Assembly (NCBI RefSeq): GCF_013170705.1
Contig: NZ_CP033334.1
Span: forward strand, 2,829,501 to 2,893,500
DNA from: Mesorhizobium loti
GTDB taxonomy: Bacteria; Pseudomonadota; Alphaproteobacteria; Rhizobiales; Rhizobiaceae
Length of the DNA: 64,000 bases
Direction of reading: 5' to 3'
Shown here: piece by piece, positions 52,520-64,000 of the stretch
Layout: every line of letters starts with the position of its first letter
Position numbering within the stretch: position 1 is the stretch's first letter
Position numbers and translations under genes: made by a program
The notes under the pieces: model-generated
What the model saw: the letters and a program-made list of their open reading frames with translations, nothing else
What the model was told of the DNA's origin: nothing
Database searches by the model: none

Positions 52520-53836
52520 TCACCACATCATGAAGGAGGCGACGTCCGCATCCGAGACCCTGCCGGCGTTCACGTCGGCGATCGCCTGGTCGACGATCGC
52601 CACGCCCTCGGCCACTTCGTCCTCGGTCAATGTCAGCGGCGGCATGAATTCGAGCACATTGGCCTTCAGCCCGACATAGGTGAAGGCCGCGCCCAGCTCA
52701 TAGCCGCGATAAATGATCTTGGCCGTGGTCGTGGCAGGCACCGGCACGCGGGTGACGCGGTCCTTGACCAGATCGATGCCGATGGCAAGGCCGCGGCCGC
52801 GCACATCACCGATGATCTCGTGCTTTGCGCCAAGCGCCCGCAGTGCGTCTGAGAACAGCGTGCCGATCCGCGCCGAGCGCCCGACCAGGCCTTCGCTCTC
52901 GATCGTCTTCAGCACCGCATTGCCTGCCGATGTCGCCACTGGATTGCCGGCGGTGGTCTGCAAGGCGAAGGCCGGCGCATGGTCCATGATCTCCTTTGGC
53001 CCGACCACGGCCGACAGCGGCAGCCCGCCGCCGATGCCCTTGCCGAACACGACAAGGTCCGGCGTCAGTCCCTCGTGCTGGAAGCAGTGCATCATGCCGC
53101 TGCGGGCAAGCCCGACCTTGACCTCGTCGACAACGATCCTGATGCCGTGTTTGCGGCAGCGCTCCTGCAGTGCTTTCAGGAACCCCGGCGGCGGCACGAT
53201 CAGCCCGCCATCCGACATCAGCGGCTCGATGAACACCGCCGCGACCTGGTGCGGTGGGCAGGTGGTCTCGAATTGGTAGTCGAGCAGGGCAAGCACCTCC
53301 TCGCCGCTGAAGTTCGGCCGGAACGGATCGGGGTAGGGCAGCAGCACCACGCCCGGTCGCGGCAGCGTGTGCGTCATGGCGGTGTGGCCGCTGATGCCCA
53401 TCGAGCCGGAGAGGTTGCCGTGATAGGAGCCGATGAAGGAGATGAAGCGCGAACGGCCGGTGGCCGCCTGCAGTACCCGCACCGCGCAGTCATTGGCGTC
53501 CGATCCGGAATGGCCGAACCAGACGCGTCGCTCTCCTTCTCCCGGTGTGATCGCGAGCAACCGCTCAGCCAGCGAGACGGCGGGCTCGTTCGGATAGAGC
53601 AGCAGGCTGGCGCCGGCCATGTTCCGGACCGAGGTCTCGACCGCCTCGACAACAGCCGGATGGCCATAGCCGAGCACCGCTGGGCCGGCCGATCCTGACA
53701 GGTCAAGCAGCGAGCGGCCGCCTTCCTCGATCAGCCTGTTGCCCTGACCTCCGACGACGCTGAGCGGCGAGAAGCGCAGCTTGCCGATCCGCGCGATTGT
53801 CGCGGCGTCGCGTTCGCGCAGGCTCGGATTGCTCAC
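52520..53836 (-). CDS. Class III PLP-dependent aminotransferase
   Basis: A 438-residue omega-amino-acid/GABA-type aminotransferase. The PLP lysine is Lys266 in F-G-K-G-I-G-G-G, the PLP-contacting Asp is Asp237 in V-V-D-E-V, and the G-S-D-A-N-D substrate region lies near 112. The GTG start at 53836 overlaps the upstream gene stop (GTGA) and has GGAG eight nt before it. It is the last gene of a five-gene leftward operon. With the ligase and oxidase genes nearby, it could play the role of PuuE in an amine-degradation route; the substrate is not proven. Confidence 0.9.
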   Translation of the reverse strand: MSNPSLRERDAATIARIGKLRFSPLSVVGGQGNRLIEEGGRSLLDLSGSAGPAVLGYGHPAVVEAVETSVRNMAGASLLLYPNEPAVSLAERLLAITPGEGERRVWFGHSGSDANDCAVRVLQAATGRSRFISFIGSYHGNLSGSMGISGHTAMTHTLPRPGVVLLPYPDPFRPNFSGEEVLALLDYQFETTCPPHQVAAVFIEPLMSDGGLIVPPPGFLKALQERCRKHGIRIVVDEVKVGLARSGMMHCFQHEGLTPDLVVFGKGIGGGLPLSAVVGPKEIMDHAPAFALQTTAGNPVATSAGNAVLKTIESEGLVGRSARIGTLFSDALRALGAKHEIIGDVRGRGLAIGIDLVKDRVTRVPVPATTTAKIIYRGYELGAAFTYVGLKANVLEFMPPLTLTEDEVAEGVAIVDQAIADVNAGRVSDADVASFMMW

Positions 53837-54600
53837 GAAACCGTCTCCGTCTCGTGTGCCGGCAGTGCCGCCGCAAGGCGGTCCGCCCACTCCTCGATGC
53901 CGGCCCTGTTTGCCAGCAGATCCTGCCGGATTTCGATAAGGACGGCGGGGATGCCGCGATCGTCGCCGTGAACGGGCACGGCGTAATCGGCGTCACGGCT
54001 GATCACATAGGGCACGTTGGCCGCGACATTGAGTGCCGTGTCGGTGCGCAGGCCCGAAAGAATCGCTTCGGCGAGACCGGCGGCATGCTCATGCAGCACA
54101 CCCGCATGCCATGGCCTGGCGACACCCAGGAAGACCGGCGTGAAAGAGTGGATCGTCACGATCCGAGTCGACCGCCCTTCGGCTGCCCGTCGATCGAGAT
54201 GTGCGGCCACCCGGTCATGGAACGGCGAAAACATGATTTTGGCGCGTCGGTCCCGTTCCGCCGCATCGATGCCGACGTTGCCGGGAATGCCGGTATCTTC
54301 CGACAGAACCGGGATGCTGCCTGGCGTGTGCAATGGCCGGTTGAGGTCGATCAGCAGCCGCGAATAGCCGCTGAGGAAGGCGGGCGCATCGAGCCGTGCC
54401 GACAAGAGGCGCGTCACCTCCGCGGCGCCGATATCCCAGGCGATGTGGCGTTGCAGATGGCTGGCATCGAGCCCGAGCTGCCGATACTCGGCTGGCATGT
54501 GGTTGGACGCATGCTCGCACAGCAGGACAATATCCGAGTGGCCGTGCTCGTTGAGAACCTCGACGGCGTCGGGCCAATCTTTTTCAGTCTGCGCAGTCAT
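53833..54600 (-). CDS. N-formylglutamate amidohydrolase-like protein
   Basis: About 255 residues of the HutG/FGase family. The N-terminal C-E-H-A-S-N-H-M-P is the zinc-site signature, with further His/Asp residues in R-L-L-I-D-L-N-R and I-H-S-F-T-P-V. The family cleaves N-formyl-glutamate, but members outside Hut operons act on other N-acyl or amide substrates. No hut genes are nearby. The gene overlaps the aminotransferase gene by 4 nt and the ligase gene by 1 nt. In this operon it may release glutamate from a glutamylated intermediate (inference). Confidence 0.86.
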   Translation of the reverse strand: MTAQTEKDWPDAVEVLNEHGHSDIVLLCEHASNHMPAEYRQLGLDASHLQRHIAWDIGAAEVTRLLSARLDAPAFLSGYSRLLIDLNRPLHTPGSIPVLSEDTGIPGNVGIDAAERDRRAKIMFSPFHDRVAAHLDRRAAEGRSTRIVTIHSFTPVFLGVARPWHAGVLHEHAAGLAEAILSGLRTDTALNVAANVPYVISRDADYAVPVHGDDRGIPAVLIEIRQDLLANRAGIEEWADRLAAALPAHETETVS

Positions 54601-55922
54601 CAATAAAGCGTCCGGTAGAGATCGCAGATGGCTGCCGGGTCGAGGCCGGCCAGACGCTCGGCCTCATGTCGCTTCAGTCCGACAAAGGTATCGATGAAGA
54701 CAGGCGCGAACCATCCCGTGACGGTCTTGTCGGCGAGAAGCGCGTCCAGCGCCGCCGGCAAGGTCTCGGGCAGCCGCACCAGGCCGAGCTTAGTCCGCTC
54801 CGCCTCGCTCATCAGGGTGGGGTCGCCGGTGACCAGCGGCGGCGATGGCAGGTCCGCCTTCAGCCCTTCCAGCCCGGCGCGGATGATCGCCGCCAGCGAC
54901 AGGTAGGGGTTGCCGGTGGCGTCGGCTGCCCGGTATTCGACATTGTATTGCCGCGCGGGATCACGTCCGCCGATCGTCACCGTCGGACAGATGCGCAGCG
55001 ATGCTTCGCGGTCGCGGTCGGCGAGCCAGGTGTAGGACGAGCTCCAGCTGTGCGGCTTCAGCCGGTAGAAGGAAGATACGCTCGAGGCCGTCATGGCGGT
55101 GATCGCCGGGAGGTGACGCAGCACGCCGGCACAGAAGGCGCCAGCCTTGGCTGACAGGCCGCCAGGTTGCGCCGCATCGTAGGTCACCGGCTTGCCGGCC
55201 TCGTCGACGAAGCTGAAGTGGATGTGCACACCGTTGCCGACGGCATTGGGCGCTGTCTTGGGCGCGAAGCTCGCGCGCCAGCCGGCATTGCGCGCCACTT
55301 CGCGTGTGACTTCACGGATGGCGACAGCGCGGTCGGCCGCCGTCAGCGCATCGGCGGGCTCGTGCGTCACTTCGAACTGTTCGTCGCCGAATTCGGCGAT
55401 GACCACCTCGGGGCCGACGCCCGCCTCCTCCAGTGCCGCCATCAGATTGGGGGCGAACGGATCGGTGCGGCGCAGCGCGGCAAAGGACATCGAATGCGCC
55501 GGCGCGAAGCTGCCGCCGGCAATGTGGAACTCATGCTCGAAGGCGGCGATGACGGAAAGGCCGGTCGCCGCCTTCAGCTCCGCCAACGCATCCCTGAGCA
55601 TGGTCCGCGTGCAGCCGAGCCAAGGGCTGCCGTCGAGCTCGACGATGTCGCCGGCCACCATGTCGAAGCGCGTCGCCGCTCCGGTCCGTTCGGTGCGGAA
55701 GCGCGCCTTGAGATCGGGGATCAGCCGCAGGTCGCCGGACGACCCCCAGGGATTGGGATCAACGATGGAATTGAACGGCGTCATCGACAGATTGGCCTGC
55801 AGCCAGCCGACACCGGTCGCTGCGGTCTTCTGCAGCCTGCTTTCGACAACGAAGCGGCCCCGCGTGACGGCGCAGAGATCCGTGGTGACGACGGCAACGA
55901 GGGGCTCGACGGTCGATGTCAT
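54600..55922 (-). CDS. Glutamine synthetase-family ligase (gamma-glutamyl-amine ligase candidate)
   Basis: A 440-residue protein of the glutamine synthetase superfamily. The catalytic C-terminal part has E-H-E-F-H, E-F-G-D-E-Q-F-E-V and G-N-G-V-H-I-H-F-S, and N-V-E-Y-R with N-P-Y-L-S-L-A-A-I near the end. The adenylylation-site tyrosine loop of true GlnA is absent, and the N-terminus is divergent. This type joins glutamate to amines, as in PuuA. The ATG at 55922 overlaps the next gene stop by 4 nt. The longer upstream frame is a shadow. It lies among oxidase, hydrolase and aminotransferase genes, as in amine degradation. Confidence 0.88.
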   Translation of the reverse strand: MTSTVEPLVAVVTTDLCAVTRGRFVVESRLQKTAATGVGWLQANLSMTPFNSIVDPNPWGSSGDLRLIPDLKARFRTERTGAATRFDMVAGDIVELDGSPWLGCTRTMLRDALAELKAATGLSVIAAFEHEFHIAGGSFAPAHSMSFAALRRTDPFAPNLMAALEEAGVGPEVVIAEFGDEQFEVTHEPADALTAADRAVAIREVTREVARNAGWRASFAPKTAPNAVGNGVHIHFSFVDEAGKPVTYDAAQPGGLSAKAGAFCAGVLRHLPAITAMTASSVSSFYRLKPHSWSSSYTWLADRDREASLRICPTVTIGGRDPARQYNVEYRAADATGNPYLSLAAIIRAGLEGLKADLPSPPLVTGDPTLMSEAERTKLGLVRLPETLPAALDALLADKTVTGWFAPVFIDTFVGLKRHEAERLAGLDPAAICDLYRTLY

Positions 55923-56581
55923 GCCTTTTTTCCCAGGGCGTTGAAACGGTCGACGACGGTGTCGGTGTCGGTGACCCAGCAATAGCCGCCGAAGGCCTTC
56001 AGCGCGATGTCGTGGCGCTCCTGGGTGATCGTGGCGCAGGCGTCCGACACGCAGGTGACGAGATAGCCGCGGTCGGCGCCATCGCGCACGGTCATGTCGA
56101 CGCATTGGTCGGTCAGCACGCCGACCACGACAAGGTAGCGGATGCCGAGGTTCTTCAGGAGATAGTCGACATTGGTCGAGTTGAAGATGCCGGACGAGGT
56201 CTTCGGCAGCATGATCTCGTCGCCGACCGGCGCCAGCGATGCAACCGGCAGGCCCTCGGGGAGGCTCGGCGCGACATGGATCGGCGTCAGCTTGTGGTCG
56301 AGCGAGCGATCGCGGCCGTCTTCGGTCAGGCTCTGGATGATGGTGTGCAGCACCTCGACGCCATTGGCGCGCGCCGCCGCAAGCAGCCGCTCCTGGTTGG
56401 GGATCGTCTGCGAGGATGTCTTGCGATAGAAATAATGGTCGGGGCCGCGCTCCGGATGCGAGGGATCGGCGCCCGGTTCCAGCCAGATGCGCTGCATGTC
56501 GACGACCAGCAGCGCCGTCTCGCCGGCACGGAAGGCTTCGTCTCGCCTGGGTAAGGCCTTTTTGGGTGAGGCTTGGGTCAT
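55919..56581 (-). CDS. Cysteine hydrolase (isochorismatase-like)
   Basis: 220 residues. The family triad is Asp in L-L-V-V-D-M-Q-R, Lys in L-P-K-T-S-S-G-I-F-N-S-T and Cys in L-T-D-Q-C-V-D-M-T-V. The long loop after the first Asp (Y-F-Y-R-K-T-S) resembles biuret/carbamoylsarcosine-type amidases more than nicotinamidases. Its ATG overlaps the RpiR gene stop and its stop overlaps the ligase gene start, each by 4 nt. Its operon position suggests amide cleavage in the same pathway. Confidence 0.88.
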   Translation of the reverse strand: MTQASPKKALPRRDEAFRAGETALLVVDMQRIWLEPGADPSHPERGPDHYFYRKTSSQTIPNQERLLAAARANGVEVLHTIIQSLTEDGRDRSLDHKLTPIHVAPSLPEGLPVASLAPVGDEIMLPKTSSGIFNSTNVDYLLKNLGIRYLVVVGVLTDQCVDMTVRDGADRGYLVTCVSDACATITQERHDIALKAFGGYCWVTDTDTVVDRFNALGKKA

Positions 56582-57516
56582 GCTTTGTCGTCCTGCTTTG
56601 GTGATTTGGGTCCGGGTGTCTTGCGTGGTCCCGCTGCCTGGCGTGCGCCGTTCTCTTGCGGGTCGCTGTCGAGCGTCACCGCATTGGCGTGGCGCACTTT
56701 CTCGATCCTCTCGATGCGAGCCCGGGCCTCGTCGCCCAGCGTCGAAACGATGTGGGCGGTAAGCGCTTCCATCTGTGCGATTGCCGGCGCCAGCGTGTCG
56801 TAGGGCGAGGCGACTTCGAGCGGGCTGACGATCGTGACTTCGGCGAAATCCGATATCGGCGACAGCCATTGGTCGGTGAAAAGCAGGATGCGTACATCGA
56901 GCGCCGCTGCCTGGCTTGCATAGGCCATCACGTCGAGCTGGTAGCGGCGATAGTCGAAGACGACGAGCACATCACGGCGGCCAAGGTCGGCCAGCGTGTC
57001 GAATGCTTGGGGGGAGAGCACGCCGAGATCACGGACACCGGTGCGAAACTGCACGAGGTATCCGGCCAGCATGCCGGCGATGTGGCGGCTGAACCGGCCG
57101 CCGACCAGCACGATCTCTCCCTTGGCCTCCATCAAAAGGCGAGCGGCCCGCTCATAGGTCTGCACCGGCGTCGCGGCGGTGGCCTTCTGCAGGGCCGCTG
57201 TGACGGAATCGAGATAAGCGAGCACGGCGCTGTCGCTGGAGCCGCTCTGCCGTTTTGCCTCCATCATCAACAGCGGTGAATGCAGCCTGGCCTCGACTTC
57301 GGCCAGAAGCTTTGACTGGAAGTCCGGAAAACCCTCATAGCCGAGCTTGACCACCAGCCTGACCACGGTCGGATCGCTGACGCCGGCACGTCGGGCGAGC
57401 GACGAGGCGGTGCCAAGGCCAGAGGTCGGATAGTCCGTCAACAGCAGCCGGACGATCTTCTCTTCCGATGGCGTCAGCGCCAGATCCCTGCGCATCAGAA
57501 CATCGCGTATCGCCAT
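56578..57516 (-). CDS. MurR/RpiR-family transcriptional regulator
   Basis: 312 residues. The N-terminal RpiR helix-turn-helix (residues 1-77) contains L-A-R-R-A-G-V-S-D-P-T-V-V-R-L. A SIS domain of about 115-250 follows (G-G-R-F-S-R-H-I-A), and the tail is basic and disordered. SIS domains usually bind phosphosugars, but members in rhizobia regulate other catabolic operons. It is first in the leftward operon and divergent from the oxidase gene, so it probably controls both operons through the repeat at 57588-57610. Confidence 0.9.
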   Translation of the reverse strand: MAIRDVLMRRDLALTPSEEKIVRLLLTDYPTSGLGTASSLARRAGVSDPTVVRLVVKLGYEGFPDFQSKLLAEVEARLHSPLLMMEAKRQSGSSDSAVLAYLDSVTAALQKATAATPVQTYERAARLLMEAKGEIVLVGGRFSRHIAGMLAGYLVQFRTGVRDLGVLSPQAFDTLADLGRRDVLVVFDYRRYQLDVMAYASQAAALDVRILLFTDQWLSPISDFAEVTIVSPLEVASPYDTLAPAIAQMEALTAHIVSTLGDEARARIERIEKVRHANAVTLDSDPQENGARQAAGPRKTPGPKSPKQDDKA

Positions 57517-57587
57517 TGGCCTCCCCGAAACAGGTGTTGGGCTCTTAGCCTCGTTATGTCGAGTTTATTACAGGGATTTTAATTCAG

Positions 57588-57610
57588 GTCAACAATGAAG
57601 AGATGTTGAC
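57588..57610. promoter_or_regulatory. Operator-like inverted repeat GTCAACA-N9-TGTTGAC
   Basis: Perfect 7-bp arms in the 154-bp gap between the divergent RpiR and oxidase genes, 60 bp before the oxidase ATG. Its location suits autoregulation by RpiR and control of both operons. Confidence 0.55.
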
Positions 57611-57670
57611 ATAGTCGAAAGAGTAGCCTTACCTTGTCGGAAAGCAGCCAAGAGACTGTGGGGAACAGCC

Positions 57671-58837
57671 ATGCGAAACGGAAGCGACGTCATCGTCGTT
57701 GGTGCTGGAATTGTTGGATCGAGCACCGCCTATCATCTCGCCAAGGCCGGTGCGAATGTCGTGTTGGTCGAGCAGACCCATCCCGCTGGTGGTCCGTCAG
57801 GCAAGTCTTCGGCGCTGCTGCATGCCTTCTACCTGATGCCGGAATTGTCGCAGCTCTCCATCCGTGGCCGCGAAATCCTGGTGTCGCTGCCCGAGATCGC
57901 GGGCGAGGGGTCCTTCGTCACCGAGATCGGCATGATGTGGGTCTGTGGCAACGACAATGAGGCGGGCTGGAAGGCGGCGGCCGAACGAATCCGCGGCGAG
58001 GGCGCGCGGATCGAGACCCTGTCGCCGCAGGCTTTTGCGGATGCGGCACCCGGCTTTGCCTTGGACAATGTCGCGCTGGCGCTGTGGGAACCCGAGTACG
58101 GCTATGCCGATGCTTTCGGCGCCACCAACGCCATCGCCCGCGCCGCCCGTGCCAATGGCGCGAAGATCCTGCAGAACACGCTTGTCGAAAACCTTCGGCG
58201 GCAGGGAGGCCGCATCACCGGCGTCACCTTGACCGATGGCACCGTGCTGGAGGCCGATACGGTCGTGCTGGCCGCCGGCCCTTGGACGCGCCGCCTGCTG
58301 GCGACGGTGGGCCTCGATCTGCCGCTGCATGTCGAGCGCCATCCGATGGCCGTGCTCGACGCCGCCGGGCAGGCCCGCAAGGTGATGCCGTTCGCCTGGT
58401 GCGACGACATTTCCTGCAACTACGCGCGGCCCGAGAATGACGGCGTCATCCTGGCCGGCACCTGGGCCGGTGGCGGCACTGGCCTGCGTCACGAGCACGC
58501 CGGCCGGCCGCGTTTCGTCGAGAACCCCGACGCCTACATGGAAGGCGTCGAAGAGTCCGAATCGGTCGAGATCCTGGAGACCTTTGCTACCCGCGTGCCC
58601 GCAATGGCCGAGCTTGGCATCCGCCCCGGCTATGCCGGGCTCTACGATATGAGCCCCGACGATCTGCCGGTCATCGGCGCCATGCCCGGTGTCGAAGGTC
58701 TGGTCGTTTCGGCAGGGTCCTCAGGCCACGGTTTCAAGACCGGGCCGGCAGTCGGCGAGGCAATCGCCAGACTGGTAACCGAAGGCCCTCAGTCGATCCT
58801 GGCGCCGTTTTCGCCCAGCCGCTTCAAGGCCGCGTGA
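57671..58837 (+). CDS. FAD-dependent oxidoreductase of the DAO family
   Basis: A 388-residue flavoenzyme. The dinucleotide-binding G-A-G-I-V-G-S-S lies near residue 14, the C-terminal segment P-V-I-G-A-M-P-G near 335, and G-H-G-F-K near 358. The family includes glycine/sarcosine oxidases and gamma-glutamylputrescine oxidase (PuuB). It has no signal peptide, so it is cytosolic. The stop overlaps the ATG of the LivMG gene by 1 nt, tying oxidation to import. It is divergent from RpiR. The substrate is probably a secondary or glutamylated amine (inference). Confidence 0.9.
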   Translation: MRNGSDVIVVGAGIVGSSTAYHLAKAGANVVLVEQTHPAGGPSGKSSALLHAFYLMPELSQLSIRGREILVSLPEIAGEGSFVTEIGMMWVCGNDNEAGWKAAAERIRGEGARIETLSPQAFADAAPGFALDNVALALWEPEYGYADAFGATNAIARAARANGAKILQNTLVENLRRQGGRITGVTLTDGTVLEADTVVLAAGPWTRRLLATVGLDLPLHVERHPMAVLDAAGQARKVMPFAWCDDISCNYARPENDGVILAGTWAGGGTGLRHEHAGRPRFVENPDAYMEGVEESESVEILETFATRVPAMAELGIRPGYAGLYDMSPDDLPVIGAMPGVEGLVVSAGSSGHGFKTGPAVGEAIARLVTEGPQSILAPFSPSRFKAA

Positions 58838-60693
58838 TGGCAGCGGTGATGATGAGCGAGCGCAAGCCGCGCGGCTTCATGCCGGCCGCGTTCCGCAACG
58901 CCGCGGCCGATGCATTGTGCATGGTGGCGGTGCTGCTCTTGGTGGCGCTTGCCGCCTTCGTCTTCGGCGGCGCCGCCATGCAGCGCGTCGTCACCTATGC
59001 CGCGATCATGCTGACGGCAGTGCTTGGGCTGCAGATTTTCTCCGGCAATAGCGGCATCGTCTCTTTCGGTCAGGCCGCCTTTGTCGGCCTTGGCGCCTAC
59101 GCCACCGGCATTCTCACCATGCCAAGCGCGCTGCAGCGCACGGCGTTGCGCGATCTGCCGGAATTCCTTGCCGGGTACCAACTCTCCTTCTTCGCGGCGC
59201 TGGCCGTCGTCCTGGTTCTGGCTGTCGTCATCGGCTTGCTGACAGGCACGCCCTTGCTTCGACTGACCGGGTCGAGCGCCTCGATCGCCACGCTCGCCAT
59301 GCTGATCATCGTCTACACGCTACTGGTCGCCGGGCGCGAGATCACCCGAGGCAGCCAGCCATTCTACGGTGTGCCGCGAGAGGTCGGGCTGTGGACCGCC
59401 GCGGCGATCGCCTCGGTGGCGCTGATCGCGGCGAGGCTCTTCCGCGAGACCTCCTTCGGTCTTGCCACCCGCGCCGCCGCCAATGACGAGCGCGGCGCCG
59501 CCGCCGTCGGCGTCGACCAGCGTACGGCGCGGTTGGCCGCGTGGGTGGCGGGCGTGGTCGCAGCCATGGCCGCCGGCGCCATGATGGCGCAGTTCCTCGG
59601 CGCGTTCTCGCCGCGCGACTTCTATTTCGATCTCGGCTTCACCATGCTCGCCATGCTGATCGTCGGCGGCATGACCTCCTCGCTCGGCGCCTTCGCCGGC
59701 GTCATCGTCACCATCGTGGTGATCGAGGTGGTGCGCCGCTTCGAGGGCGGCGGCGAGGTGCTCGGCCTGCATCTGCCTGTCCTCTTCGGCCTGACCCAGG
59801 GCGTGTTGGCCATCGCCATGATCCTGGTCATCTGGCGCCGGCCCACCGGCCTTTTCGGCGAGCGTGAGCTCAACCTTCTGCGCCGGTCCGGGCGCCAGGC
59901 GGACATGGCTTCGGCCGCTGTGCCGCAACAGGTTGGTGCCGACCGGCTGGTGGCCGACCATCTGTCACGCCGCTATGCCGGCGTCGTCGCGGTGGACGAC
60001 GTCAGCTTGAGCTTCGAGACCGACAGCATCACCGGCATCATCGGACCCAACGGCGCCGGCAAGACGACACTGCTCAACATGCTGGCTGGCGATGTGCAAC
60101 CCAGTGCGGGAACCGTGTCCGTCGGCGGCGTGGTGCGGCAGGCCTCGGCCTTTCGCTTTGCGCGATCGGGCATTGCCCGCACCTTCCAGAACATCCGCGT
60201 CTTTCCGCACATGACGGTGCTGGAAAACGTCGTCGTCGCCGCCCGACAGGTCGAACCGGATCTCGGCCGCGCCGAGGCCGCGGCGATGCGCGAACTGTCC
60301 CGCATGGGCCTGGAGAAGTCAGCCGACCAGCCGGCGGCACGGCTCGCCTACGGCCAGCGCCGTCGGCTGGAAGTGGCGCGCGCCCTGGCGCTCAAGCCGC
60401 GCTTCCTGCTGCTCGACGAGCCGGCCGCCGGCATGAATGCCGTCGAGACCGCCGAACTCGTCTCCATCCTGTCGGCGGTGCGCGCCGAGCGCCGCATCGG
60501 CGTCGTGCTGATCGAGCACGACATGCGGCTGGTGATGAACCTTTGCGAGCGCATCGTCGTCATCGACCATGGCCGCGTCATCGCCGACGGCACGCCGGCC
60601 GATGTCCAGAACAACCCCGCCGTCATCGCCGCCTATCTCGGCAGCCGCACGGCGCGCGCCAAGAGCGCAACAGCTGAAAACCAGCCCGCATAG
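58837..60693 (+). CDS. Fused branched-chain-type ABC permease and ATPase (LivM-LivG)
   Basis: A 618-residue fusion. Residues 1 to about 345 are the LivM-type permease with about nine spans and the E-A-A/G-like loop near A-A-N-D-E-R-G-A. From about 355 comes the LivG-type ATPase: Walker A G-P-N-G-A-G-K-T-T, signature A-Y-G-Q-R-R-R-L-E, Walker B L-L-L-D-E-P-A-A-G-M-N and the family C-terminus. LivF and LivH are encoded downstream, so the importer is complete. The ATG at 58837 is preferred to the GTG one codon earlier. Confidence 0.9.
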   Translation: MAAVMMSERKPRGFMPAAFRNAAADALCMVAVLLLVALAAFVFGGAAMQRVVTYAAIMLTAVLGLQIFSGNSGIVSFGQAAFVGLGAYATGILTMPSALQRTALRDLPEFLAGYQLSFFAALAVVLVLAVVIGLLTGTPLLRLTGSSASIATLAMLIIVYTLLVAGREITRGSQPFYGVPREVGLWTAAAIASVALIAARLFRETSFGLATRAAANDERGAAAVGVDQRTARLAAWVAGVVAAMAAGAMMAQFLGAFSPRDFYFDLGFTMLAMLIVGGMTSSLGAFAGVIVTIVVIEVVRRFEGGGEVLGLHLPVLFGLTQGVLAIAMILVIWRRPTGLFGERELNLLRRSGRQADMASAAVPQQVGADRLVADHLSRRYAGVVAVDDVSLSFETDSITGIIGPNGAGKTTLLNMLAGDVQPSAGTVSVGGVVRQASAFRFARSGIARTFQNIRVFPHMTVLENVVVAARQVEPDLGRAEAAAMRELSRMGLEKSADQPAARLAYGQRRRLEVARALALKPRFLLLDEPAAGMNAVETAELVSILSAVRAERRIGVVLIEHDMRLVMNLCERIVVIDHGRVIADGTPADVQNNPAVIAAYLGSRTARAKSATAENQPA

Positions 60694-60739
60694 ACCAACG
60701 ATGACAGCCAACGATAACAAATCCAGAAGGAGAACCGAC

Positions 60740-61906
60740 ATGCCAAGCCTCCATCGCCTCCACCGCGCTGCCCTGTGCGCGGCCCTGTCAGGCATCGCCG
60801 CCGTTTCGACGGCGAGTGCCGAGGAGATCATCATCGGTGCGGCGACCGCGCAGACCGGCGGCCTTGCCCCCTACGACCAGCCGGCCCTTGCCGGGTTGCG
60901 CATGTCGATTGACGAGCTCAACGCCAAGGGCGGGCTCGGCGGCAAATACACAGTCAAGCTGCTGATCAAGGACACGCGCTCCGATACCGCGCAGACCGCC
61001 ACCGTCGCCCAGGAACTGATCGACGCCGGCGCCAAGGTCATGATCACGCCCTGCGATGCCGATCCTTCGATCTCAGCCGGCCAACTCACCCAGCCGCTCG
61101 GCATTCCGACCCTGACTTTGTGCGGCTCCGCTCCCGTGCTCACAGGTGCGGTCGGCGACGTCATGTTCGGCACCTATCCGGCCGACAATGTGCAGGCGAC
61201 GGCGGTGGCCGATTTCGCCGTCTCCGAAGGCAAGAAGAAGGTGTTCCTGCTGACCTCGCCGGACTCCACCTATACCGCCAATCTGCCGGAATATTTCGGC
61301 AAGGTGTTCGAGAAGAAGGGCGGCGCCGTCGTCGGCCGCGGCACCTTCACAATGGGCCAGCCGGACTTCTCCGCCGAGATCACCAATATCAAGGGCCTCG
61401 CCGATAAGCCGGACCTGATCATGACGGCCGCCTATGAGCCGGATTTCCCGGCCTTCATCCAGCAATTGCGTGGCGCCGGCGTTACCATCCCGGTCTATGG
61501 AGCCGATGCCATCGGCACGCCGACCATCAAGGCCCTTGGCAAGCTCGTCGACGGCGTCGTCTATACCGCGGCCGGCTACGCCGAGCCGGGCAGCAAGCTC
61601 GAGGCCTTCAACGCCGCCTTCACCAAATATGCCGGCCACGCGCCGGAATCGACCTATGAGGTCAATGGCTACGAGATCGGGCTGATCCTCGATCAGGCGG
61701 TCAAGACCGCCGGGTCCGACGATCCCAAGGCCATCCGCGACGCCATCGCCAACCTCAAGGATTTCGAAGGCATCACCGGCAAGATCACCTATGCCGGCAC
61801 CGACCGCATGCCGCTCAGGCCCGTGGCGCTGATGCGCTACGACGGCGGCGAGGGCAAGCATGTCGAGACCCTGATCCCCGCCGCCGCCGACGTTCCCGCG
61901 CCGTGA
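60740..61906 (+). CDS. Branched-chain-type ABC substrate-binding protein
   Basis: A 388-residue periplasmic binding protein of the LivJ/LivK (type I periplasmic) group. The signal peptide ends near A-S-A-E (about residue 27). The mature part begins I-I-I-G-A-A-T-A-Q-T-G-G and contains D-T-R-S-D-T-A-Q-T and Y-E-P-D-F-P-A-F-I. These proteins bind amino acids, amides or urea. AAGGAG eight nt before the ATG at 60740. It follows the LivMG gene by 46 bp. Confidence 0.9.
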   Translation: MPSLHRLHRAALCAALSGIAAVSTASAEEIIIGAATAQTGGLAPYDQPALAGLRMSIDELNAKGGLGGKYTVKLLIKDTRSDTAQTATVAQELIDAGAKVMITPCDADPSISAGQLTQPLGIPTLTLCGSAPVLTGAVGDVMFGTYPADNVQATAVADFAVSEGKKKVFLLTSPDSTYTANLPEYFGKVFEKKGGAVVGRGTFTMGQPDFSAEITNIKGLADKPDLIMTAAYEPDFPAFIQQLRGAGVTIPVYGADAIGTPTIKALGKLVDGVVYTAAGYAEPGSKLEAFNAAFTKYAGHAPESTYEVNGYEIGLILDQAVKTAGSDDPKAIRDAIANLKDFEGITGKITYAGTDRMPLRPVALMRYDGGEGKHVETLIPAAADVPAP

Positions 61907-61910
61907 TGCC

Positions 61911-62615
61911 ATGCTGAGCGTCGAAGCCCTGAAGATCCGGTACGGCGAAGTCGAGGCGGTGCGCCGTGTCGACCTCACCGTCGACAGCGGCGAGATCATC
62001 GCGCTGGTCGGCGCCAATGGCGCCGGCAAGAGCTCGACCCTCGGCGCCGTCGCCGGGCTGGTGCCGGCTGCGTCCGGCAAGGTGGTGTTCGACGGGGCCG
62101 ACATCACGGGCCTGGCTCCGGAGGCCATCGCCCGCAAGGGGGTCGCGCTGGTTCCCGAAGGCCGTCGCATCTTCGCTAGCCTGACGGTCGCCGACAATCT
62201 GCGTCTCGGCGGCGCGGTGCATCAGCCGGCGGCCGAGGCGCGCGTGCGCGAGGAGGAGATGCTGGAGCTGTTTCCGATCCTGCGTCGCTACCACCGCGTC
62301 AAGGGCGGCAACCTGTCCGGCGGCGAGCAGCAGATGCTGGCCATCGCCCGCGCCTTGATGGGCAAGCCGCGCATGATCCTGCTCGACGAGCCGTCGCTCG
62401 GCCTTGCCCCGCAACTGATCGACACCGTCTTCGACCTGATCGCCGAACTGCGCCGCAAGGGCCTGACCATCCTTCTGGTCGAGCAGAATGTGGCACTGGC
62501 GCTGGAAATCGCCGACCGCGCCGTCGTGCTTGCCAATGGCGAGGTGGTGCTGTCGGGCACGGCTAAAGAACTCGCCTCTTCGGACCTCGTCCGCCAAGCC
62601 TATCTGGGAGCTTAA
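61911..62615 (+). CDS. livF: Branched-chain-type ABC transporter ATPase (LivF)
   Basis: A 234-residue ATPase. Walker A G-A-N-G-A-G-K-S-S, signature L-S-G-G-E-Q-Q-M and Walker B I-L-L-D-E-P-S-L-G-L-A-P are intact, and E-G-R-R-I-F-A-S-L-T-V is the LivF-specific stretch. It pairs with the LivG half of the fusion. It starts 5 nt after the binding-protein stop. Confidence 0.94.
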   Translation: MLSVEALKIRYGEVEAVRRVDLTVDSGEIIALVGANGAGKSSTLGAVAGLVPAASGKVVFDGADITGLAPEAIARKGVALVPEGRRIFASLTVADNLRLGGAVHQPAAEARVREEEMLELFPILRRYHRVKGGNLSGGEQQMLAIARALMGKPRMILLDEPSLGLAPQLIDTVFDLIAELRRKGLTILLVEQNVALALEIADRAVVLANGEVVLSGTAKELASSDLVRQAYLGA

Positions 62616-62620
62616 GAAGC

Positions 62621-63502
62621 ATGGTCGCGCAGCAGATCATCAATGCGGTCAGCCTCGGCGGCGTCTATGCGCTGCTGGCGCTCGGCCTGGCCATTGTCTT
62701 CTCCATCGTCGGCCTCATCAATTTCGCCCATGGCGAGCTGATGACGCTGTCGGGCTATGCGCTTCTGGCGTCGCTGGTGCTCGGCTTTCCCTTCCCGGTG
62801 GCCGTGCTTGTCGCCGTGTCCTGCGGCGCGCTCGCCGCTGTCGCCATGGAGCGCATCGCCTTCAGGCCGATGCGTGGCGCCAGCGTCACCAGTCTTCTGC
62901 TGACCAGTTTCGCCGTGTCGAGCCTCTTGAAAGTTATCTTCCAGAACGGTATTTCGGCCCGGCCGCAGGCCGTCGCCATGCCGGGCTGGATGACCGGCGC
63001 CTTCTCCTTCGGTGATTTCACCATCGGCGTCGGTCCCAGCATCTCGATTGTCGTCTCGGCGCTGGCGCTGATTGCGATGGAGGTCTTCCTGCGCCGCTCG
63101 GTGACCGGCACAGCGATGCGCGCAGCGGCGGAGGATTTCGACGTCGTGCGCCTGATGGGCATTCCGGCCAGCCGCATCATCGCCACCGCTTTCCTGCTCT
63201 CCGGCTTGCTGGCGGGGTTGGCGGCCATGCTGTGGGTGGCGCAACGCGCCTCGGTCGATCCGCTGATGGGCTTCACGCCGGTGCTGAAAGCCTTCATCGC
63301 CGCCGTGGTCGGTGGCCTCGGCAGCCTGCCGGGGGCTGTCGCGGGCGGTTTCCTGCTCGGCATCATCGAGGTGCTGCTGCAGGCGACGCTGCCGGCGGCG
63401 ATCGCGCCCTATCGCGACGCCATCGTGCTGTCGGGTGTCATCGCCGTGCTGCTGCTGCGGCCGCAAGGCTTGATCCCGGCGGTCCGGGTCCAGCGTAGCT
63501 AG
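62621..63502 (+). CDS. livH: Branched-chain-type ABC permease (LivH)
   Basis: A 293-residue permease with about eight spans. The LivH signature N-F-A-H-G-E-L-M lies near residue 36 and G-G-L-G-S-L-P-G-A-V-A-G-G near 235. It completes the importer with the LivM half of the fusion. It starts 6 nt after livF. A palindromic repeat follows its stop. Confidence 0.94.
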   Translation: MVAQQIINAVSLGGVYALLALGLAIVFSIVGLINFAHGELMTLSGYALLASLVLGFPFPVAVLVAVSCGALAAVAMERIAFRPMRGASVTSLLLTSFAVSSLLKVIFQNGISARPQAVAMPGWMTGAFSFGDFTIGVGPSISIVVSALALIAMEVFLRRSVTGTAMRAAAEDFDVVRLMGIPASRIIATAFLLSGLLAGLAAMLWVAQRASVDPLMGFTPVLKAFIAAVVGGLGSLPGAVAGGFLLGIIEVLLQATLPAAIAPYRDAIVLSGVIAVLLLRPQGLIPAVRVQRS

Positions 63503-63567: not shown

Positions 63568-64000
63568 ATGTACAGCAAGCCGGAATTCGCGCCTTTGTCG
63601 CGCGACGCCGTGTTCGGCCTGATCGAGGCGGCCGCTTTCGCCACGGTGGTGACAGCAGGGCCGCAAGGGCTCGTCGTCTCGCATCTGCCGTTCGTGCTCG
63701 ACCGCACGCGGGGCGCAAACGGAACACTGGTCTCCCATCTCGCCAGGGCCAATCCGCACAACGAGCTGATTGCGCAGGGCCTGGAGACGGTAGCCGTCTT
63801 CCAGGGGCCGCATGGCTACATCTCGTCCTCCTGGTATCCGCGCAACCCGGTCCGCGACAGCGCTCCGACCTGGAATTTTGCCGTGGTGCATTGCCATGGC
63901 CGTCCGGTGCCGCTCGACGCGCACGCCACTGCCCGGCATTTGCTGCAACTGGTCGACGTACTGGAAAAGGATCGCGAGGACCGCTGGCGCATGCGCGAAC
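63568..64000 (+). CDS. FMN-binding negative transcriptional regulator (PaiB-like), N-terminal part
   Basis: The first 144 residues of a PaiB-family protein, cut by the right edge. It starts M-Y-S-K-P-E-F and has S-H-L-P-F-V-L-D, N-P-H-N-E-L, F-Q-G-P-H-G-Y-I-S-S-S-W-Y and V-P-T/A-P-T-W-N-F-A-V-V-H, all typical of the family. PaiB proteins have a split-barrel flavin-binding fold; B. subtilis PaiB represses protease and sporulation genes. Role here unknown. Confidence 0.88.
   Translation, partial: MYSKPEFAPLSRDAVFGLIEAAAFATVVTAGPQGLVVSHLPFVLDRTRGANGTLVSHLARANPHNELIAQGLETVAVFQGPHGYISSSWYPRNPVRDSAPTWNFAVVHCHGRPVPLDAHATARHLLQLVDVLEKDREDRWRMRE

Follow-up and report, generated by a model that had tools for sequence, protein, structure and literature searches.

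Bacteria that use ethanolamine by gamma-glutamylation glutamylate the amine, oxidise its far end to a carboxylate and then cut the gamma-glutamyl-amino acid with an FGase-family enzyme, as described in the accessible parts of the reports on this pathway (PMC9397018, PMC6529630, PMC10132767). In those parts PF05013 proteins are proposed to be the gamma-glutamylglycine amidohydrolase of ethanolamine use (PMC9397018 table, PMC6529630), and in Phaeobacter an RpiR regulator and a 'gamma-glutamylglycine amidohydrolase' are located with the ligase and two dehydrogenases (PMC10132767). Excerpts of two further sources describe the ligase PA5508 as favouring bulky amines over polyamines (PMC6478659, citing Ladner 2012) and, in a review, caprolactam racemases as acting on amino acid amides (PMC7431475). 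Here we examine a locus at 52520-63502 of a 64,000-nucleotide stretch (G000:C1:2829501-2893500, hereafter the window) within a complete 6.87-Mb Mesorhizobium genome, in which relatives of such a ligase, hydrolase and racemase are encoded together with a predicted amidase and an importer. We propose, at about even confidence, that the locus encodes a pathway, driven by ATP and arranged on the ethanolamine scheme, in which alpha-amino acid amides or closely similar neutral alpha-amino carbonyls (e.g. amino lactams) are gamma-glutamylated.

Open reading frame calls and Pfam matches divide 52520-63502 into two divergent, tightly packed operons. The minus-strand operon contains, in order of transcription, genes for RpiR, an isochorismatase-family hydrolase (ISO), a glutamine synthetase (GS)-family ligase, a PF05013 hydrolase (FG) and a class III pyridoxal phosphate (PLP) protein. 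The plus-strand operon contains genes for a DAO-family flavoprotein, a fused LivM-LivG, a substrate-binding protein (SBP), LivF, LivH and a PaiB-like protein. There are 4-base overlaps at the RpiR/ISO, ISO/GS and FG/PLP gene junctions, and the FG start is touched by the GS stop. A first-pass annotation had described this gene complement and its tight coupling, both of which we recovered, and had likened the set to the Puu route. That analogy is wrong for two of the three enzymes on which it was built; the ethanolamine pathway and the amide racemases are the more informative comparison. Our comparisons of this module used profile searches for each of its genes, and the named loci (L numbers) counted below are the best 80 of 431 confirmed.

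Enzymes encoded by the locus

The last gene of the minus-strand operon (52520..53836, GTG start at 53836) encodes a PLP protein of fold-type I that had been annotated as a PuuE-like aminotransferase. A PDB sequence search with this protein placed 6GIO, 'Amino acid amide racemase', at the top (E 2.6e-236), with caprolactam racemases ranking next and GABA aminotransferases far lower. Over 434 aa the protein is 80.2% identical to 6GIO; its identity to 5M46, a caprolactam racemase chain, is 56.0%, as against 33.8% and 32.9% to PuuE and GabT of E. coli, respectively. In chains 5M4B and 5M4D, one Asp and one Lys of 5M46 are exchanged for alanine. This Asp/Lys pair is present in the window protein (D209/K240 by alignment count) and in all 38 of the aligned module relatives, whereas PuuE and GabT have Glu/Gln at these positions; the PLP lysine is also present, as in 6GIO and 5M46. 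Judged by sequence, the protein is an amino acid amide racemase, predicted to be of the alpha-amino-epsilon-caprolactam type, and we rejected the PuuE-like assignment on the basis of the signature residues and the identity ranking. 6GIO is itself 93% identical to the product of a gene within the same module at L032. To our knowledge, amino acid amide racemases are known from industrial use only. At L044, L052, L119 and L123 a second isochorismatase-family (amidase-family) gene adjoins the racemase gene within the Liv operon. A triple-domain APH-M23-aminotransferase III protein directly adjoins the racemase in L097 (L097:10623-13664) and L098, the domains having been assigned by Pfam on L097 only; it suggests amino alcohol handling in that branch.

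The second component of the Puu analogy, a PuuB-like oxidase, was rejected because the DAO protein (57671..58837, plus strand; Pfam DAO 1e-66) aligns with PuuB over a 46-residue FAD stretch only. It resembles sarcosine, N-methyl-Trp and glycine oxidases and is an accessory component of the module. Neither E. coli PuuC nor E. coli PuuD had a tblastn match in the whole window at 1e-5; the absence of an aldehyde dehydrogenase, which the annotation had also noted, is thus real, at least for PuuC relatives. A strong DAO match was found in only 21 of the 80 named loci, which places oxidation outside the core of the module. We weighed a Puu-like route in which an amine is glutamylated, oxidised by the DAO enzyme and deglutamylated, the product then being transaminated by the class III enzyme. 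The locus does encode a GS-family ligase, a DAO-fold enzyme and a PLP protein of the class III fold, but by its sequence the last of these is a racemase, the DAO protein aligns with PuuB over 46 residues only, PuuC and PuuD gave no match in the window and most module loci have no strong DAO match. We regard this route, and with it the Puu-like oxidation step, as highly improbable; the core points to hydrolysis of an amide instead.

The ligase gene (54600..55922, minus strand) had been termed PuuA-like. Its product does belong to the GS family, but is closer to PA5508 (4HPP; 46% identity over the full length) than to PuuA (27%). Comparison with GlnA, for which we take the residue roles to be those generally assigned, showed that 10 of 10 catalytic Glu, Arg and His residues are retained (E129, E131, E212, E220, H269, R321, R339, R344, E357 and R359). 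The ammonia-site Glu, E327 of GlnA, is replaced by Trp in 76 of 76 ligase relatives and in PA5508, and by Tyr in PuuA. N264 and Y179 of GlnA correspond to Val and Ser in the window ligase and to Val and Ala in PA5508, and the D50/S53 positions fall in alignment gaps. An ordinary glutamine synthetase was rejected because of the loss of E327, and we assign the protein as a PA5508/GoaS-type ligase, a predicted gamma-glutamyl-organic-amine synthetase. The annotation's idea that an imported amine or amide is gamma-glutamylated is supported.

Overlapping the racemase gene is the gene for the FGase-family hydrolase (53833..54600, minus strand; ATG 54600, with TTG 54603 possible; Pfam FGase 5e-39), one of six PF05013 genes in this genome. 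In BLASTP searches the protein was 42% identical to the FGase of L138/L086, 44% to 2ODF and 35% to that of L089, and it had no match at 1e-3 to the FGases of L084 and L085, which we take to be HutG itself. A HutG-type histidine route is unlikely on these comparisons. The closest relative of the window hydrolase within the genome is the FGase of an ethanolamine-type cluster, L138 (G000:C1 ~2040001-2047560), which comprises RpiR, FGase, an amino acid permease, GS, an aldehyde dehydrogenase and an Fe-alcohol dehydrogenase (Fe-ADH); its enzymes are those that have been described for growth on ethanolamine through gamma-glutamylation. No Fe-ADH or aldehyde dehydrogenase family was found among the scanned operon proteins of the window locus, both being present in the separate L138 cluster. 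The genome has a third ligase-FGase cluster, L134 (G000:C1 ~2230795-2239962), with an aldehyde dehydrogenase, an FGase and a GS-family ligase, together with a putative XRE-type regulator and a Liv-type importer (both judged from protein starts). Because ligase and FGase-family hydrolase are also paired in L138 and L134, the pair looks like a reusable frame. We predict that the window protein is a gamma-glutamyl-amino acid hydrolase resembling formylglutamate hydrolases. The earlier suggestion that such a hydrolase deglutamylates in place of PuuD is strengthened by the paralogous ethanolamine-type cluster and by the PF05013 proposals in the accessible parts of the ethanolamine reports. Amidohydro_2 proteins adjoin FG at L094 (and at L096, by gene position) and the ligase at L102, an arrangement that recalls fungal FluG, described in an excerpt of PMC6478659 as a fusion of amidohydrolase and GS domains.

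Between the ligase and regulator genes lies the ISO gene (55919..56581, minus strand; Pfam 4e-33). D28, K127 and C160 of its product were invariant in an alignment of 19 sequences, and K127 and C160 were at least 97% conserved among 76 ISO proteins. In the structure model (predicted local distance difference test, pLDDT, 91.9) the nearest characterised folds were triuret/biuret hydrolase, RutB, maleamate amidase and N-carbamoylsarcosine amidase, and those of the 20 best fold matches that have been characterised break C-N bonds of amides or ureides. Family, Asp-Lys-Cys triad and modelled fold agree with the amidase originally proposed, and the protein is predicted to be an isochorismatase-type cysteine amidase. 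This prediction bears on whether the substrate could be an alpha-amino ester or lactone, such as homoserine lactone. According to the accessible part of a review (PMC7431475, citing Frese 2018), amino acid esters are also racemised by the Ochrobactrum enzyme, but such a substrate would leave the amidase without an amide to cut before deglutamylation, and the nearest characterised amidase folds are those of amide and ureide hydrolases. An ester or lactone thus appears very unlikely.

Importer, regulation and neighbouring genes

The complete Liv-type importer of the first-pass annotation was recovered, with two permeases, two ATPases and one binding protein. This HAAT importer is encoded on the plus strand by a fused LivM-LivG (permease and ATPase; 58834..60693, ATG 58837 also possible; BPD_transp_2, ABC_tran and BCA_ABC_TP_C), the LIV-type periplasmic SBP (60740..61906; Pfam, alignment and model), the LivF ATPase (61911..62615) and the LivH permease (62621..63502; Pfam). 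LivM-LivG is one protein of 619 aa, and proteins of ~600 aa similar to this fusion occur in many other Liv-bearing module loci.

We aligned 42 module binding proteins with LivJ, whose sequence was checked against its record, and 4N0Q. At the positions that we take to be LivJ ligand contacts, all 42 have Tyr at LivJ 150 and 202, Asp at 226 and Ser or Thr at 102, and in all 42 the LCSS of LivJ 77-80 (the S79 region) is replaced by C-D-A-D. By alignment, the LivJ-type carboxylate loop is thus replaced and the binding protein does not have the signature of a plain branched-chain amino acid importer. The retention of amine-binding positions with replacement of the carboxylate loop fits a ligand with a free amine and no free carboxylate, for example an amide. 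Binding proteins of a second type have CD[FY]D in five of five cases when linked to a racemase and in none of three when there was no racemase in the stretch; the motif was also not found in M20-linked proteins. The model of the window binding protein (pLDDT 84.1) matches many LIV-type proteins about equally and so does not decide the ligand.

The RpiR gene (56578..57516, minus strand; Pfam HTH_6 and SIS) is separated from the DAO gene by a region containing a perfect inverted repeat, GTCAACA-N9-TGTTGAC (57588..57610), which is a candidate RpiR operator. This was the sole match in the window at two or fewer mismatches, with 0.09 expected. Allowing up to three substitutions, 28 of 47 upstream regions, the window's among them, contained the repeat; these include all 20 DAO-flanked regions besides the window and none of the 16 LivM-flanked regions. 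As the repeat was not found in the LivM-flanked regions, the operator idea holds for part of the loci, mainly those bearing DAO. A promoter scan of 57400-57800 detected no sigma-70-like site.

The annotation had ended the unit at 63502. Its genes up to that point stand, but the plus-strand operon extends further, with a PaiB-like FMN_bind_2 gene (63568..64000, plus strand; Pfam 1.9e-41) that continues past the window end and is followed on the same strand by an ornithine cyclodeaminase gene; L152:69-1767 holds the remainder of the former together with the latter. The cyclodeaminase, a PRK07589 member (587 bits, cut-off 350) located just beyond the window, is the only one above the cut-off in this genome. 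Its relatives lie directly behind LivH at L074, L076 and L077 and behind FG at L035, and 26 of the 80 named loci have one at above 400 bits.

That a cyclodeaminase gene follows the importer genes is a hint that one of the products may be ornithine. The substrate might then be specifically the lactam or amide of a basic amino acid (ornithine or lysine lactam), and the cyclodeaminase would convert the ornithine to proline. The linkage in the window genome and in L074, L076, L077 and L035 is consistent with this, as are the naming of the racemase family after lysine lactam and the two invariant Asp residues of the binding-protein loop. However, only 26 of the named loci have the cyclodeaminase at this level, the gene persists in L012 and L019 without importer and racemase and, as the sole copy above cut-off, it may serve general arginine and ornithine use. 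We consider a specifically basic substrate distinctly improbable. At the other end of the window, 1-24000 resembles a region for surface polysaccharide biosynthesis and export, judged from protein starts alone.

Conservation of the module

Matches to GS, ISO, FG and RpiR were present in 80, 79, 78 and 74 of the 80 named loci, respectively, and all four in 74; ISO-GS-FG were contiguous on one strand in 70. A separate phylum-wide draw of 398 genomes contained PA5508-like genes at 1e-80 in 18 genomes (20 genes). For the 19 genes outside the window genome, all four core genes were nearby in 15 and three or more in 17. As controls, none of nine other GS-family loci and none of 11 other class III PLP loci in the window genome had all four core genes, with one of the GS-family loci (L138) having three. 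By these counts the conserved core comprises RpiR, the isochorismatase-type amidase, the ligase and the formylglutamate-hydrolase-like protein.

Other components were more variable. Strong racemase matches were present in 40 of the 80 named loci and in six of the 19 phylum-draw loci. Among the named loci, 19 of the 21 with a strong DAO match also had the racemase, as did one of the 13 with an M20 deacylase. From these presence counts we regard the amide/glutamyl part as the core and the racemase and oxidase as additions. A racemase-first search identified members at 1e-110 in 13 of 387 alphaproteobacterial genomes (14 genes), and eight of the 13 genes outside the window genome had GS, ISO or FG within ~10 kb. 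In the Mesorhizobium loci L012, L019, L010 and L015 the four-gene core is kept and the racemase, DAO and importer are not nearby; in L012 and L019 the ornithine cyclodeaminase remains, along with a partial PaiB-like match, a pattern that looks like deletion. In four same-phylum genomes whose ligases are 59-73% identical to PA5508 (L110-L113), RpiR, ISO, GS and FG genes occur in a row, with a permease next in L110 and L111; a profile search of these loci found no match to the racemase, DAO or LIV-type binding protein. The remaining three members of the core are presumably PA5506, PA5507 and PA5509 in P. aeruginosa. Searches of an open-access library returned only the ethanolamine papers as related and no account of these genes as a pathway; this does not show absence from print.

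Proposed pathway and comparison with known systems

The proposed pathway builds on features that were observed directly: gene identities, the signature residues of racemase and ligase, the amidase triad, the conserved clustering of the genes and a hydrolase close to the one in the ethanolamine-type cluster. The HAAT importer would bring the amine into the cell, where the racemase may interconvert the L and D enantiomers. Coupling of the substrate amine to the gamma-carboxyl of glutamate would fall to the PA5508-type ligase, after which the isochorismatase-type cysteine amidase would convert the carboxamide to a carboxylate, standing in for the alcohol and aldehyde dehydrogenases of the ethanolamine pathway. 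The FGase-family hydrolase would then split the gamma-glutamyl-amino acid into glutamate and the amino acid, so that the overall products would be an amino acid, ammonia and glutamate. The DAO enzyme possibly removes a D-amino acid product, and RpiR would control both operons through the inverted repeat at 57588-57610. It is the racemase that points to an alpha-amino amide or lactam as substrate, and since a chiral amide needs a racemase and glycine does not, this would explain why a racemase has joined this version. Which substrate is used, in what order the steps occur, what each enzyme catalyses and what RpiR does are our inferences.

Several observations weigh against this proposal. A GS paralogue is also near an FGase in two control loci (L134 and L138), and the ligase-hydrolase pairing is thus not amide-specific. 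Contiguity of ISO-GS-FG was found in only seven of the 19 phylum-draw loci, and D28 of the amidase was less than 97% conserved among the 76 ISO proteins (some gene starts being uncertain). An amidase-first search found a relative at 1e-60 in only four of 387 genomes, including the window genome, and the stretches around the other three relatives (L107-L109) contained module relatives and no racemase; the L109 genome carries a racemase on another contig. Five of the 13 racemase genes outside the window genome stand alone. The link between C-D-A-D and the racemase is loose: of the 41 named loci in which the binding-protein match is strong, six have no strong racemase match, L114 has CDVD without a racemase, ADAD occurs in L117 and L118, and at L030, where a racemase is present, the nearby M20-type Liv binding protein lacks the motif. 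The reason for glutamylating an amide before hydrolysis is not obvious. Finally, a strong racemase match is missing from 40 of the 80 named loci, from 13 of the 19 phylum-draw loci and from all four loci nearest to PA5508, which means that the core substrate need be neither chiral nor an amide.

These racemase-free loci suggest an alternative in which a bulky monoamine or amino alcohol is the core substrate, protected by the ligase, while the amidase cuts another amide or ureide bond and the racemase handles a side product. Such a substrate would agree with the preference of PA5508 for bulky amines over polyamines given in the excerpt cited above (PMC6478659), and elsewhere the module carries an M20 deacylase or, at L060, an amine oxidase instead. 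However, the core is without any oxidoreductase and conservation is as high for the amidase as for the ligase (79 and 80 of the 80 named loci), and we therefore judge a bulky amine to be unlikely as the core substrate.

Pathways for alpha-amino amides or lactams would have wider implications. We tentatively suggest, with somewhat less confidence than we attach to the pathway itself, that these racemases belong by nature to a gamma-glutamyl pathway that spends ATP. An alpha-amino amide or lactam (perhaps ornithine lactam, leading to ornithine and then proline) would be imported as both enantiomers, its amine masked with glutamate, its carboxylate unmasked by the cysteine amidase and the glutamate recovered by the FGase-family hydrolase. 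If correct, this would provide a physiological role for a racemase family used in making chiral amino acids and would point to the kind of substrate that PA5508-type ligases, the one of P. aeruginosa among them, act on. Ligase and FGase-family hydrolase would also form a general chassis in which the middle step swaps between two dehydrogenases and one amidase. The enzymes can be assayed singly, making the idea directly testable.

Comparison with described systems delimits what may be new here. The locus shares with the E. coli Puu putrescine pathway a GS-family ligase as the first step but has no PuuB-, PuuC-, PuuD- or PuuE-type enzyme. With PA5508 and the PA5506-PA5509 unit of P. aeruginosa, as presented in the accessible parts of PMC6246594 and PMC6478659, it shares the ligase family (46% identity). 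It resembles the amino acid amide racemase 6GIO and the caprolactam racemases (5M46, 2ZUK) in identity (80% to 6GIO, 56% to 5M46), the Asp/Lys pair and the PLP lysine, and adds to these a context of ligase, amidase and hydrolase genes. The ethanolamine pathway, described for Chromohalobacter salexigens, Streptomyces coelicolor (GlnA4) and Phaeobacter sp. MED193 in the available portions of the reports, likewise combines a GS-type amine ligase with a PF05013 hydrolase, and the Phaeobacter version further has an RpiR regulator and a dedicated importer (PMC10132767). Unlike that pathway, the window locus is without Fe-ADH and aldehyde dehydrogenase and has an isochorismatase-family amidase and a racemase instead, and its uptake system is of the Liv type rather than TRAP or APC. 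If the proposal is correct, the locus would encode a sister pathway to that of ethanolamine, with one hydrolysis in place of two oxidations.

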